Shown piece after piece: positions 16,901 to 64,000 of a DNA stretch of 64,000 nt. Source of the DNA: Bacteroidota bacterium (GTDB taxonomy: Bacteria; Bacteroidota; Rhodothermia; Rhodothermales; UBA10348); assembly GCA_029262835.1 (NCBI GenBank), contig JAJCYQ010000013.1, positions 16,524-80,523 on the forward strand, given 5' to 3'. Each line of letters begins with the position of its first letter. The first letter of the stretch is position 1. The translations under genes and the position numbers were made by a program. The notes beneath the pieces are model-generated. The model ran no database searches. It was not told the DNA's origin and saw only the letters and a list, made by a program, of their open reading frames with translations.

Positions 16901-17623
16901 GACCGAAAGCAGTTCGGGGCAGTGCGCAATCGAAATCCAGAAGGCCTCGGTCGACTGCCCCGACAGCGTGCGGCCGCTCTGGTCCACGATCGTGCCGGAA
17001 ATCATTACGGGAAGCCGGACTCCGCGCTCGCGGTAGGCGGTTTCTATGGCAAAAATGGCCGCCTTGGCGTTCAGCGTGTCGAAAATGGTCTCGATCAGCA
17101 GCAGGTCGACGCCCCCATCCAGAAGGCCTTGGATCTGCTCGAGATAGGCGGCCGAGAGCTGGTCGAATGTGGCGGCCCTGTAGCCGGGATCGGTCACGTC
17201 GGGCGAGAGCGAAAGGGCGATGTTGGTCGGACCCATGCTTCCGGCGACGAACCGGGGCTTGTGGGCAGACCACTTGTCGGCCGCGGCGCGGGCGGCCCGC
17301 GCCGCGGCCGCATTCATTTCGCGGGCATGCGCCTCCAGGCCATAATCGGCCTGCGAGATGGCATTCGCGCTGAACGTATTCGTCTCAATGATGTCGGCCC
17401 CCGCCTCCAGATAGCGCTCATGCAGCGACTGGATGAGGTCGGGCTGCGTCCACGCGAGCAGATCATTGTTGCCCGCGAGGGACGTCGCGTGGTCCTTGAA
17501 CAGGTCTCCCCGGAAGTCCTCTTCGGTTGGTTTTTCCTGTTGGATGAGCGTACCCATGGCCCCATCCAAAACGAGGATGCGTTCCTTGAGGGCGCGGAGC
17601 AGAAGATCGGTGCGGGGTGTCAT
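13931..17623 (-). CDS. metH: Cobalamin-dependent methionine synthase
   Basis: [50 protein letters not shown], reactivation domain. Confidence 0.96.
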
Positions 17624-42883: not shown

Positions 42884-42960
42884 GTGGATTGGCGGTTCCT
42901 GATTGTCATGACCTGGTTACTCAGGAGTATCGACAATGCGAATGGCGTCTTAAACCGAAA

Positions 42961-42990
42961 AGGGGGGCGCGCCAGTGGCGCGCCCCCCTT
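42961..42990 (-). terminator. Intrinsic terminator downstream of S8 protease
   Basis: AGGGGGGCGCGCC agt GGCGCGCCCCCCTT with TTTT on the minus strand. Confidence 0.8.
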
Positions 42991-55001: not shown

Positions 55002-55192
55002 GGAGCGTGTCTCTGTTTCGGGGAGATGCGGCGGTTGCGGAGTGGGTTTACGTAGGATCTTCTACAGGTAAGCGGTTCGAATGGGTTCCCTGCGGCGTGG
55101 CCCGTGGCGCCGATCTCCGATTCCGGGGACCCGCGCTGCCGCATGTGAATAGAAGACCGTGCACCCAAGTCCGCAATGCATCCACTGTTACC

Positions 55193-56098
55193 ATGAACAT
55201 TCTTCTGACCGGCGCGACCGGATTCGTGGGCCAATATGTGGCCCGTTCACTCTCCGAAGCTGGGCACACTGTCCGCGCGCTCGTGCGCTCCAAAACGGGA
55301 GGTCTCCGTGGAGCACATGAGCAGGTTGAAGGCGATATCCTGCGGCCGTCCTCTCTGCACGGAAAGGCGGACGGCATGGATGCGGTCGTGCACCTCGTCG
55401 GCATTATCGAGGAGAAGCCCGCGAAGGGCATTACCTTCGACACCGTCCACCATGTGGGCACGCAGAACATGGTTGTGGAAGCCAAGCGCGCCGGCGTCAG
55501 GTCGTTCATCCAGATGAGTGCCAATGGCGCCCGGGAAGACGGTGTTTCAGCCTACCAGACGAGCAAGTGGAAGGCAGAAAACACCGTGTTGCGGGCCGGA
55601 TTCGAACACGCGGTCGTGCTGCGCCCGTCGCTCGTATTCGGGGAGCCCGCGCCCGGCCAACCGGAGTTCTGCTCGCAGCTCGTACGTACGCTGCTCAGGC
55701 CGTTTCCTGTCTGGCCGGTATTCGGAGATGGGGCGTACTGCATGCAGCCTGTTCATGCCCAGGACGTGGCATCGGCCTTTACGGCAGCCCTCGCGCGGCC
55801 CGATCTGAACGGCAAGCGGCTTTGCCTCGGCGGCTCGGAGGCCCTGCCCTACACGGACATCCTGAAGCGGATTGCGCGTGGCGCCGGCATACGCCGGCGT
55901 CCCATGATCAAGCAGCCGGCAGCTCTGATGGCGCCCGTCATATCCCTGTTCGGTGGGTGGGCCCTGCCCATTACGAGTGACCAGTTCCGGATGCTGATTG
56001 AGGGCAATGTGTGCCCGGAGAACAGTCTACAGAGCGTATTCAATATCGAGCCCCGCGCATTTGACGAGGCGGCACTCGCTTACCTGGCTGGCGCCTGA
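55193..56098 (+). CDS. NAD(P)-binding NDUFA9-like atypical SDR
   Basis: MNILLTGATGFVGQYVARSLSEAGHTVRALVRSKTG, QMSANGAREDGVSAYQTSKWKAE. Confidence 0.88.
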   Translation: MNILLTGATGFVGQYVARSLSEAGHTVRALVRSKTGGLRGAHEQVEGDILRPSSLHGKADGMDAVVHLVGIIEEKPAKGITFDTVHHVGTQNMVVEAKRAGVRSFIQMSANGAREDGVSAYQTSKWKAENTVLRAGFEHAVVLRPSLVFGEPAPGQPEFCSQLVRTLLRPFPVWPVFGDGAYCMQPVHAQDVASAFTAALARPDLNGKRLCLGGSEALPYTDILKRIARGAGIRRRPMIKQPAALMAPVISLFGGWALPITSDQFRMLIEGNVCPENSLQSVFNIEPRAFDEAALAYLAGA

Positions 56099-56162: not shown

Positions 56163-56193
56163 AAATGGGGGGCGGCCTTTCGGCCGCCCCCCA
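56163..56193 (-). terminator. Intrinsic terminator between convergent genes
   Basis: ATGGGGGGCGGCC tttc GGCCGCCCCCCAT, T-tract on the minus strand. Confidence 0.7.
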
Positions 56194-56242
56194 TTCCATG
56201 TTCAGGACGAGGACCAGGTCCTTCGTATGCTGTCAGGCCCCG

Positions 56243-56403
56243 GAAGCGTGTTGATGAACCAGCGTGCGCCAGGATGCGAGCGCCGGAATGCCAGATGCAA
56301 GGCGTCCCGACGCCGAATAGTGGTGCTATTCGAAGGAGGGACAACGCCGCAGATGGCGTTTCGCCGCCGCATTAGGGTGTGCGATGGTTTTTCAACACGC
56401 TTC
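56243..56403. mobile_element. MITE/REP-like terminal-inverted-repeat element, copy 1
   Basis: GAAGCGTGTTGATGAACCA ... TGGTTTTTCAACACGCTTC (17/19 TIR match), about 94% identical to 63842-64000. Confidence 0.85.
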
Positions 56404-56407
56404 TAGA

Positions 56408-58738
56408 TCAGATGTCGATCTGGCTCTTCTTGAGCATGAACAGGCCAGACTCGATACCCGTCACGACAATGGTGCCACTTTCAAAGTAAGGATAGTTGCT
56501 CCACGTGCCATTGAAACCGGCCTGATCGTTGTCCGCCTGGGGCGCAACATCGAAGTGGGCGACTTCGACCGGATTCTCCGGGTCGGAAATATCCAGAATG
56601 CGAAGTCCCGAGTTGTAGTTCGACTGGTACATCAGGTTGCCCCGGATATACAGGTTGTGGTCCGAGGACGCGTGCGTTCCGAGGTGCTCCTTGACAAGGA
56701 CCGGATCGTCCAGGTCCGAGATGTCAAAGATCATGGTCCGCGTTTTCTCGGCCAGACCCTGCATTTCGTCGAGCTCGTCGTTCACGTAGTAGTACCGAAG
56801 ATCATCGGACGTCCAGCCCTGGTGCGTGTAGCCCGCATTGGGATACTGACCAATGGAGATGCCCACGGGGTTGTCCTTGTCGGTCACATCAGCAATGGAA
56901 AGCGCCGTTTCGTTGTGGCCGAAGCAGATTTCGCGACCCGCATAGTCGGCATCCGGTCCGTTGTAGATGATGCACTGGGCGTCATGCGAATAGCCTGTGC
57001 CGGCGCGGCCCGTTCCCTCGTGGCCAAAGCAGCCCGCAAATGTCGGGTTCTTTGGATCCTGGATGTTGATCATGTGGAGTCCGCCTCCACACGTGTCACC
57101 ACCCGAGTTGACGCCGACGGCATAGGCAAAACCACTTTCCTCGTTGATTACGATGTTGTGGGCGCTCCCAATGTCCCCGTAATGGGCATCGGCTTCGAAC
57201 ATCTGCGGCTCAGCGACATCACGCAGCCGCGTCAGGTCGAATATCTGCATACCATGCTGTCCGGCGCCGTCCGATACGATGAAAGTGTGATTGTTGTACA
57301 CCTTCATATCGCGCCAGGACGCCGGCTGCGCTCCATCCGTGAGGGGGAGGTCGCCGAGGTAGCGCGGGTTGGCCGGATCTGTGATATCTACAAAGGAGGT
57401 ACCGTTCGTACGACCGGCAATCACATACTCACGGCCTGTCTCCGGGTCGGTCCAGCCCCACACGTCGTTCATCCGGATACCGCGACCACCGCCGAGGTCC
57501 GAGATGTTCAGAAAAGAGACGAGGTCCACGTCCTGGCAAGGAAAGGCGGCTGCTTCACCCTCACCACACTCGACTTCGCCGCCGGTGATGGAGGCAAACA
57601 TGTCTTCGTACGGCGTGGTTACGGTGGCTTCCAGCGCCCATCCTTCTTCATTCTGTGCAAGGATGTACGCTTCCCCAATGCCATTGTCAGCGGGTCCGTT
57701 TCCTACGACCGCCAATCCTTCGTGTACAGCGAATGCCGAACCGCCAGCCGCGTCGCCATCGACGAGGAAGTAGGACGCCGAGAAACCACTCGGGCCTCCT
57801 TCATACACATAGACGGAGCCCGCTCCACCGACCCAGACATCCTGTCCGACGACGGCTACAGCCGAGCCGGTACCCGGCTGGGCGACCGTGAACGGCAACA
57901 GCACGCCAGCAAGCTGGAATTCACCGGCCTGTCCGCGGTAGACGGCCGCACCGCCGACACCGCCGCCCAACTGGGGCGTGCCGACAACAGCAAGACCGCC
58001 TTCAAGCGCGAGTCCCATGCCAAAATTCGAGCCGTCGAAGACGCCCGGAAACTTGCCCAGACGACCGTGGGCCACAAAGGCATCCTGATCTTCGTGGTAA
58101 TAGTAGGCGTAGACGTTTCCGTCGGATTCATCGCCCGCCAGCGGGGCGGCGACCAGCAGGTTACCGTTGTCCATGGCGACGGCGAGGCCGTAGAAGGCCC
58201 CTTCTTCCGATTCTTCTTCCTGGAGTTTGGAATGTTGTGTCCAGGAGCCGTCCGCGCCGCGATGGAACACGTATGCGGCGCCTCGGCCAGCGTCGGCGCC
58301 CGCGGCGCCAACCACCAGCCAGTCACCGTCGAGTGCAAGAGAGCGGCCGAACGATTCTTCTTCCGATGAATCCTCGCCAAGCAGTTTCTGCGTCTCTACC
58401 CAGTTGCCACTGGCATCCTTGGTGAAGACGTAGGCGCCTCCTGTAGAGTTGTTCATGAGCGTCGAGCCTACGACAAGCGTCGAGGCGTCTGCTGCCAGGG
58501 AGCGACCAAAGCGGTCATCCTGCCCATTGTTGTCAGAGGCGACGAGCAGCTCGGCCTGCTCCCAGGAGCCATCGGCCGCCTTGCGGTATACGTAGACAGA
58601 CGAATTCGTACTGTTCTGGCCACTCATACCGACGACGACATCATCTCCGGCCACGGCGGCGGCACCGCCGAAATTCTGGGCCGAAACCGGGACGACAAGA
58701 AAAACGCCCATGATCAGGGCGCAAATAAAACGATTCAT
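56408..58738 (-). CDS. Choice-of-anchor B family protein with FG-GAP-like repeats
   Basis: MNRFICALIMGVFLVVPVSAQ; repeated AVAGDDVVVGM/ALDGDWLVVGAAGADAGRGAAYVF; LVSFLNISDLGGGRGIRMNDVWGWTDPETGREYVIAGRTNGTSFVDITDP. Confidence 0.85.
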   Translation of the reverse strand: MNRFICALIMGVFLVVPVSAQNFGGAAAVAGDDVVVGMSGQNSTNSSVYVYRKAADGSWEQAELLVASDNNGQDDRFGRSLAADASTLVVGSTLMNNSTGGAYVFTKDASGNWVETQKLLGEDSSEEESFGRSLALDGDWLVVGAAGADAGRGAAYVFHRGADGSWTQHSKLQEEESEEGAFYGLAVAMDNGNLLVAAPLAGDESDGNVYAYYYHEDQDAFVAHGRLGKFPGVFDGSNFGMGLALEGGLAVVGTPQLGGGVGGAAVYRGQAGEFQLAGVLLPFTVAQPGTGSAVAVVGQDVWVGGAGSVYVYEGGPSGFSASYFLVDGDAAGGSAFAVHEGLAVVGNGPADNGIGEAYILAQNEEGWALEATVTTPYEDMFASITGGEVECGEGEAAAFPCQDVDLVSFLNISDLGGGRGIRMNDVWGWTDPETGREYVIAGRTNGTSFVDITDPANPRYLGDLPLTDGAQPASWRDMKVYNNHTFIVSDGAGQHGMQIFDLTRLRDVAEPQMFEADAHYGDIGSAHNIVINEESGFAYAVGVNSGGDTCGGGLHMINIQDPKNPTFAGCFGHEGTGRAGTGYSHDAQCIIYNGPDADYAGREICFGHNETALSIADVTDKDNPVGISIGQYPNAGYTHQGWTSDDLRYYYVNDELDEMQGLAEKTRTMIFDISDLDDPVLVKEHLGTHASSDHNLYIRGNLMYQSNYNSGLRILDISDPENPVEVAHFDVAPQADNDQAGFNGTWSNYPYFESGTIVVTGIESGLFMLKKSQIDI

Positions 58739-58803
58739 GTTCTTAGCGGGGTTGGCTTGTGTTGTTGAAACCTGGCCCTTCTCACGACGAAGCGGGAAAA
58801 AAG

Positions 58804-59667
58804 TTACATCCGGTGCTCGTACTGGCACTGACTGTTGTCGGAGGACAGATAGTAGGTCTTGTGGTTCGTGGCGGCTGGATCCGTGCATCCTCGAAGCGGC
58901 AACAGATCTACGCGGCGAAACGCCACCGGATGGCGGCCCGCCTTGAGTGCAATACGCCCTTCCGTCACAATGCGGCCATCGTACTCCGGGCGCGACCAGC
59001 TGAGCACCCGCACGCTGTCTACCACATGATCCACGCGCTCCGCCCCCAGTACATCGACATCCACGCGCACCCACTCGTCGCCGTGATGCGTTTCAGAGGC
59101 CGACGAAACGCAGGTGCGGGTCACCTTCTCACCGGCCATCATTACATCCAGGCCTCGGGGACAGAGATTGGCTGTCGGCCGGTCATCCTGTCCGTTTCCG
59201 CCGAGCAGTTCAATCTCCGCTGACGGAGGGTAGAGCTGATCGGCGCCCATTCCACTCACCTCCAGGGCATGAACCAGCAGGCCCGCCCGGCGCCAGGAAC
59301 GATCGGCTACATGGCCGGGCTCGCCCCCCAGGAAACGGTACTCGACCCGGAGCCTGTAGAACGAGTCCGTGCGCTCATGAATGAGCAGGCCCACGACATC
59401 CTCGTGCAGCGGACGCTCGTCGCCGGGCGGTGGCGCCAGCACGAGCTGCCCGTCCTGGACGCGGAAAACGTCACCCGGGTTGTCTCCGAGTGGAGAACCG
59501 ACCACCTTGGGTGTCCAGCCCGCCAGGGAACGCCCGTCGAACAGGCGTATCCAGTCCTCGCGGTCCGGATCGGGTTCAGGACCGGTACAAGAGGCCAGAA
59601 CGAAGACCAGCCCGAGCAGCATCCCAGACAGCAGGACGGCGGGAAGAGGACGAGTATGCGTCGACAC
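58804..59667 (-). CDS. DUF1080 / 3-keto-disaccharide hydrolase-like lipoprotein
   Basis: Lipobox VLASCTG; DWIRLFDGRSLAGWTPKVVGSPLGDNPGDVFRVQDGQLVL. Confidence 0.82.
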   Translation of the reverse strand: MSTHTRPLPAVLLSGMLLGLVFVLASCTGPEPDPDREDWIRLFDGRSLAGWTPKVVGSPLGDNPGDVFRVQDGQLVLAPPPGDERPLHEDVVGLLIHERTDSFYRLRVEYRFLGGEPGHVADRSWRRAGLLVHALEVSGMGADQLYPPSAEIELLGGNGQDDRPTANLCPRGLDVMMAGEKVTRTCVSSASETHHGDEWVRVDVDVLGAERVDHVVDSVRVLSWSRPEYDGRIVTEGRIALKAGRHPVAFRRVDLLPLRGCTDPAATNHKTYYLSSDNSQCQYEHRM

Positions 59668-63684: not shown

Positions 63685-63756
63685 ATGCGGGCGTGGATCG
63701 CGTCGGGGCATACGACAGGCGTCAGCCGGCAGGACACACCGGTCCCGTCGGCTTGC

Positions 63757-63840
63757 ATCTTCTCCCATCCGGACTGCGGCGCGCCATGCGCACTCACCGT
63801 CGGCTCCGGCTTCTCACCGGATCAACCACGCCCAGGCCAG
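63757..63840 (-). promoter_or_regulatory. FMN riboswitch (RFN element), visible 3' half only
   Basis: Minus strand GATCCGGTGAGAAGCCGGAGCCGACGGTGAGTGCGCATGGCGCGCCGCAGTCCGGATGGGAGAAGAT matches RFN 3' consensus (GAUCCGGUGAAAUUCCGGAGCCGACGGU..AGUCCGGAUGGGAGAAG). Confidence 0.88.
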
Positions 63841-63841
63841 A

Positions 63842-64000
63842 AGAAGCGTGTTGAAGAACCAGCGTGCGCCAAGATGCGAGCGCCGGAATGCCAGATGCCA
63901 GGCGTCCCGACGCCGAATAGCAACGCTATTCGAAGGAGGGACAACGCAGCAGATGGCGTTTCGCCGCCGCAGTAGGGTGTGCGATGGTTTTTCAACACGC
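63842..64000. mobile_element. MITE/REP-like terminal-inverted-repeat element, copy 2 (last ~2 bp beyond window)
   Basis: GAAGCGTGTTGAAGAACCA ... TGGTTTTTCAACACGC; same length and orientation as copy 1. Confidence 0.85.

Follow-up and report, generated by a model that had tools for sequence, protein, structure and literature searches.

Two copies of a palindromic repeat lie in the window (the whole 64,000-nucleotide stretch that was analysed), and the question is what kind of element they represent and what it means that one of them lies in a riboswitch leader. The original prediction described an undescribed MITE- or REP-like family of about 161 bp, with two equal, same-orientation copies of about 94% identity. 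Such copies are indeed present (56243-56400 and 63843-64000; spacing 7,600; identity 94%), and copy 1 has a computed folding energy of -100.8 kcal/mol, compared to -56.4 +/- 3.7 for shuffles (z -11.9). The ends, GAAGCGTGTTGA(N2)AACCA, are found at the copies as described, and so is the hairpin GAATAG-loop-CTATTC. The repeat does span 161 bp, but the mobile unit itself is 159 bp long (56244-56402), the outer G and C being part of the target site. In its element form (AAGCG...CGCTT, 159 bp), it is a near-full-length palindrome (AAGCGTGTTGAA...TTCAACACGCTT). We consider it very likely that the repeat is a non-autonomous DNA transposon (MITE), served by a DDE transposase of the IS5/IS1182 kind, with a YTAR target and a 4-bp duplication. 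The two copies and the surroundings of copy 1 are as follows:

56244-56402, forward strand: MITE copy 1, full 159 bp (AAGCGTGTTG...CAACACGCTT), arm A first, flanks CCGG and CTAG, between convergent genes
56244-56258, forward strand: left terminal inverted repeat of copy 1, AAGCGTGTTGATGAA
56388-56402, reverse strand: right terminal inverted repeat of copy 1, reverse complement AAGCGTGTTGAAAAA
56315-56331, forward strand: central hairpin of copy 1, GAATAG-TGGTG-CTATTC
63844-64000, forward strand: MITE copy 2, 157 of the 159 bp
55007-56098, forward strand: NAD-dependent epimerase-family gene, left of copy 1
56408-59074, reverse strand: FG-GAP/LVIVD-repeat gene, with its stop codon a few bases right of copy 1
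56164-56195, no strand assigned: GC-rich terminator-like hairpin between the convergent genes, kept at the empty site in genome G001

Copy 1 lies between convergent genes, as had been predicted. Copy 2 ends at position 64000, where the window and contig C13 (80,523 bp) both end, and its other half is on contig C4 (L012). The full length originally given for copy 2 was extrapolated because contig C13 ends inside it. Further terminator-type GC-rich palindromes, long and near-perfect (arms of 15-16), occur in the window at 17278-17310 and 42960-42990.

That the window holds only two copies would agree with a one-off segmental duplication. The genome as a whole (G000; 3.45 Mb, 103 contigs) makes this extremely improbable: BLAST returned about 20 near-full-length copies and further fragments, spread over many contigs with unrelated flanks, and both target duplications and empty sites exist (see below). 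Thus, the outcome named as a refutation, only two copies and no empty sites, did not occur. A search profile built from 21 copies recovered the same 20 copies, a dozen fragments and about nine members of a longer relative (227-288 bp). The terminal motif has 60 matches in this genome and none for a reversed control pattern, which excludes chance.

The longer relatives have the ends AAGCGTGTTGAA(C/T)AAGTA, with the variants AAGCCCGTTGAA and AAGGCTGTTGAA, and are also flanked by YTAR. The 159-bp profile matches them in its core (E about 1e-21), so that one core (CAGATGCAAGGCGTCCCGACG...GGAGGGACAACGC) is common to families whose outer arms differ. In G003, one family sits in the central hairpin of the other (L080, L121). 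The same ends also occur on elements of about 33 bp (L076, L082, L115, L122).

The element is also present in the same-genus genomes G003 and G001. G012 and G019, which belong to the same family, have one diverged copy each, and G021 has a partial copy. Only the genus itself and G012 score among 396 Bacteroidota genomes. As judged from these sequences, the host range is narrow, comprising one genus and three sparse relatives. A contig labelled Amylibacter (L077) has an exact terminal match and carries a full copy; it belongs to the same sampling series as G003, from which mis-binning is the likely explanation. A wider spread of a CATCTGC-GCGTTG core to other phyla, which had been suspected, is unsupported in viral contigs, phages, plasmids and the 396 Bacteroidota genomes. 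The diverged copy in G012 (C1:325850-326008, L055) lies between two convergent genes and directly adjoins both stop codons. In G001, a copy (C64:21567-21725, L054/L098) lies directly 3' of the stop codon of a paralog of the LVIVD-repeat gene from the window, in the orientation opposite to the window copy.

The original prediction saw no clear target-site duplication. This holds for the two window copies, neither of which has a clean 4-bp duplication (copy 2 is flanked by CTGG and CTTC), which is why it was missed, but it does not hold for the family. When 26 full copies with both flanks and one copy reassembled from two contigs were compared, 76 of the 108 flank letters agreed, compared to 57.4 with shuffled right flanks (P<1e-5), and eight duplications were exact (1.7 when shuffled, P = 4e-5). 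Flank identity reaches 69% at length 4, compared to 6-30% for every other length tested. The target consensus is CTAG/YTAR (CTAG/TTAG/CTAA/TTAA). In two elements, L011 (1475-1675) and L019 (1480-1660), the normal ends are absent and the flanks are repeats around the element (CTGGACGCCCGCTGA twice; GCCCGATG...CATCGGGC).

Empty sites are available for both window copies. The convergent gene pair around copy 1 occurs without the element in G001 and G002. In G003, this locus has one element at the same stop codon, offset by 5 bp, and a second one at the epimerase stop codon. For copy 2, the FMN riboswitch is uninterrupted in G001 (91.6 bits), G002 (114.3 bits) and G003 (89.2 bits). Another copy interrupts an ORF whose parts are on contigs C44 and C4, and removal of the element together with one TTGA restores the frame. 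This ORF has no Pfam or NCBIfam family match and looked Rpn-like by eye only. Two of the empty-site arguments rest on contig ends joined through the repeat. The insertions are species-specific.

The fold of the element raises the alternative that it is a structured RNA or regulatory element (terminator, mRNA stabilizer or small RNA) under selection, its mobility being secondary. The very stable fold reported above agrees with this, and so does the conservation of pairing. Over 21 copies, 97% of cells pair, and changes on both sides affect 19 of the 59 pairs, compared to 3.9 in shuffles; the two arms therefore stay complementary. The central hairpin loop varies among copies (TGGTG, CAGCG, CAACG, CAGGG) while its stem is nearly invariant. 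At terminal positions 4-6 (CGT, CCC, TCC, CCT, GCT), changes mostly occur at both ends together. The original proposal that structure is kept while the loop differs, to be checked by covariation, is thus upheld as arm complementarity, while the signs of a role specific to RNA (strand asymmetry and orientation bias) did not pass their controls. All 36 of 36 copies fold better on the arm-A-first strand, but they share ancestry. Strand-specific RNA selection was rejected as the cause, since 8% of trials with random mutation of a palindrome give a gap as large and the asymmetry is reversed in the sister family. Complementarity may be kept by copying between the arms, by recognition of the DNA ends by the transposase, or by RNA folding.

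A structured RNA could also account for the 18 of 72 copies that directly adjoin a stop codon on its 3' side. YTAR, however, contains TAA/TAG, and special targeting of stop codons was rejected on this ground: the choice of YTAR targets plus the loss of damaging insertions suffices. Of the 15 YTAR sites that lie outside genes in the window, 6 are stop codons (the stop-codon count relies on approximate gene calls, made with a simple codon-usage score). An orientation bias towards flanking genes was likewise rejected (18:12, P = 0.36). The terminator-like hairpin beside copy 1 is conserved at the empty site in G001; therefore, copy 1 is not needed as a terminator. A search of the window against the curated RNA families of Rfam gave no match for the element at the gathering level. 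With insertions that are species-specific, one of them disrupting an ORF, we regard selection for an RNA or regulatory function as improbable, and a MITE remains the preferred reading.

In several copies, a different short palindrome (TTGCGCCGATACCGGCGCAA or TGCGCCGGTACCGGCGCA) takes the place of the central hairpin, both in the own genome (L016, L018, L020, L022, L024) and in G003 (L073, L074, L102, L104, L106, L107). Further short palindromes (GGCCGGGTACCCGGCC, GGGCCGACATCGGCCC) lie within the family-2 copies L044 and L042. There may be a second type of very small mobile palindrome.

A transposase with matching ends, which had been proposed as a check, was found in the genus and is of the DDE type. 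G003 carries a complete insertion sequence of 1,464 bp (C30:2679-4142, L153); no other complete copy was found in the genus. Its ends are AAGCGTGTTGAAAAAGTC and AAGCGTGTTGAACAATGG, both having AAGCGTGTTGAA, and it is flanked by the duplication TTAA. It codes for one 465-aa transposase with the domains DUF772, DDE_Tnp_1 and DDE_Tnp_1_6. Against NCBIfam, this protein scores 176.8 bits for IS5_4 (cut-off 140) and 262.8 bits for IS1182 (cut-off 270). The MITE and this insertion sequence have only about 13-15 terminal bases in common, while their internal sequences differ. No copy of this transposase was found in the own assembly; the partner may have been lost from this genome or may be missing from the draft. 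We infer that the G003 transposase, or a lost relative in the own genome, could mobilize the MITE in trans. The partner probably belongs to the IS5 (or IS5/IS1182) sphere.

Plasmid relatives of the G003 transposase are annotated as IS5 family, and four were examined. Two of the four end in CTAG|CAGGCTGTTGAAATACC or a close variant: the IS5-family element from a Pandoraea plasmid has the ends CTAG|CAGGCTGTTGAAA, and that from Paraburkholderia has the same with small changes. The relative from a Microvirga plasmid has a less regular version of these ends (CTTAGCAGGCTGTTGAAAAAGT / CCTAACAGGCCGTTGAAAAAGT), and no ends were found for the fourth, from a Geobacillus plasmid. These plasmid elements independently tie this transposase type to such an end and target. 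The own genome has a second insertion sequence at C49:1-1624 (L051), of the IS1182 type (359 bits) and with perfect 20-bp ends (CCTAGGAGTCCGTCGGACTT); it is probably flanked by a CTAG duplication plus inverted repeats. It was rejected as the partner because its ends differ (GAGTCCGTCGGACTT inside CTAG).

The other half of the original label, REP-like, did not survive. REP- or BIME-type palindromes are spread on single-stranded DNA by a Y1 (RAYT) tyrosine transposase, and the element resembles them in being palindromic, multi-copy and mostly intergenic. A Y1_Tnp transposase was, however, found in none of the four genus genomes (G000-G003), while controls were detected. The 4-bp target duplication, the two-ended inverted repeats, a length of 159 bp instead of the 20-40 bp of a REP, and a DDE insertion sequence with the same ends also argue against it. 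Spread by a RAYT is thus very unlikely, and a DDE-mobilized MITE is retained.

The unusual part of the family is the copy inside the FMN aptamer. The position in a riboswitch leader was correctly predicted; more exactly, copy 2 splits the aptamer itself. The features concerned are:

63753-63843, reverse strand: FMN riboswitch aptamer (RF00050), 3' half, split by copy 2, with the 5' half on contig C4
62614-63768, reverse strand: ribD, first gene of the riboflavin operon behind the split riboswitch

The mechanical ORF start of ribD probably lies upstream of its true start. The operon (ribD, riboflavin synthase, ribBA, ribH) extends down to 60232. The insertion is in the variable hairpin of the aptamer, between the conserved segments AGCCCGUGAACC and GGUUGAUCCGGUGA. 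When the joined leader was folded computationally, the 62 pairs of the empty aptamer were all kept, while the element made 59 pairs within itself and did not pair with the aptamer. Riboswitch function is therefore predicted to tolerate copy 2.

The join of C13 and C4 is inferred and the repeat is at the end of both contigs, so that the interrupted riboswitch might be an artefact of wrong joining at a repeat. We consider this unlikely, because on each contig taken separately one aptamer half leads directly into the element, because these halves complement each other, and because an intact FMN riboswitch was not found elsewhere in the own genome. Taking the interruption as genuine, copy 2 is a natural experiment, an aptamer with a self-folding insert of 159 nt in its variable hairpin. 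We tentatively speculate, as a doubtful possibility, that palindromic MITEs offer riboswitches and other structured RNAs a natural way of acquiring expansion segments, and that this FMN switch works with a 59-bp peripheral helix or with shifted regulation. If so, a MITE landing in a tolerant riboswitch hairpin would add a ready-made helix of 59 bp and leave the aptamer unbroken.

In the mechanism that we propose, a DDE transposase of the IS5/IS1182 kind would recognize the ends AAG(N3)GTTGAANAA and would either cut the element out or copy it. The element would then be joined to a YTAR target, yielding the 4-bp duplication. As YTAR holds TAA/TAG, many insertions would fall directly 3' of a stop codon and leave the gene intact. 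The RNA of the element would fold on itself, and insertion in a tolerant loop, such as that of the FMN riboswitch, is predicted to spare the host structure. An uncultured Bacteroidota genus thereby gains a clearly bounded mobile family for which ends, target and empty sites are described along with a candidate transposase, and the repeat accounts for assembly breaks in genomes of the genus. This 159-bp MITE family is new; the original term "undescribed" is consistent with a literature search, which cannot prove it.

Among known elements, ERIC from enterobacteria has a length of 127 bp, and its target duplication is usually given as TA, compared to the 4-bp YTAR duplication of the MITE. ERIC is described as a full-length imperfect palindrome of 100-200 bp that is non-coding, mostly intergenic and also found at the 3' ends of genes (PMC10969869). 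The MITE is likewise palindromic, non-coding and mostly intergenic, but host and family are unrelated. BrickBuilt from Porphyromonas and a MITE from Cardinium belong to the same phylum and are described as non-autonomous inverted-repeat elements (PMC4596501, PMC9769881); they resemble the MITE in this description. IS1272, a member of the IS1182 family, whose model the G003 transposase narrowly misses (262.8 of 270 bits), targets inverted repeats and replaces stem-loops without target duplication (PMC5678879). The repeats flanking L019 and L011 recall this type of replacement. Only these two elements look different, while the MITE family has the 4-bp YTAR duplication. IS5 duplicates YTAR (PMC10359306), and IS5-family insertion sequences (NCBIfam NF033581 group) have terminal repeats of the same class as the MITE (nAGnnnGTTGAAnA) and a YTAR/CTAG target. 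The 159-bp element differs from them in being devoid of a gene and has only its ends in common with the insertion sequence.
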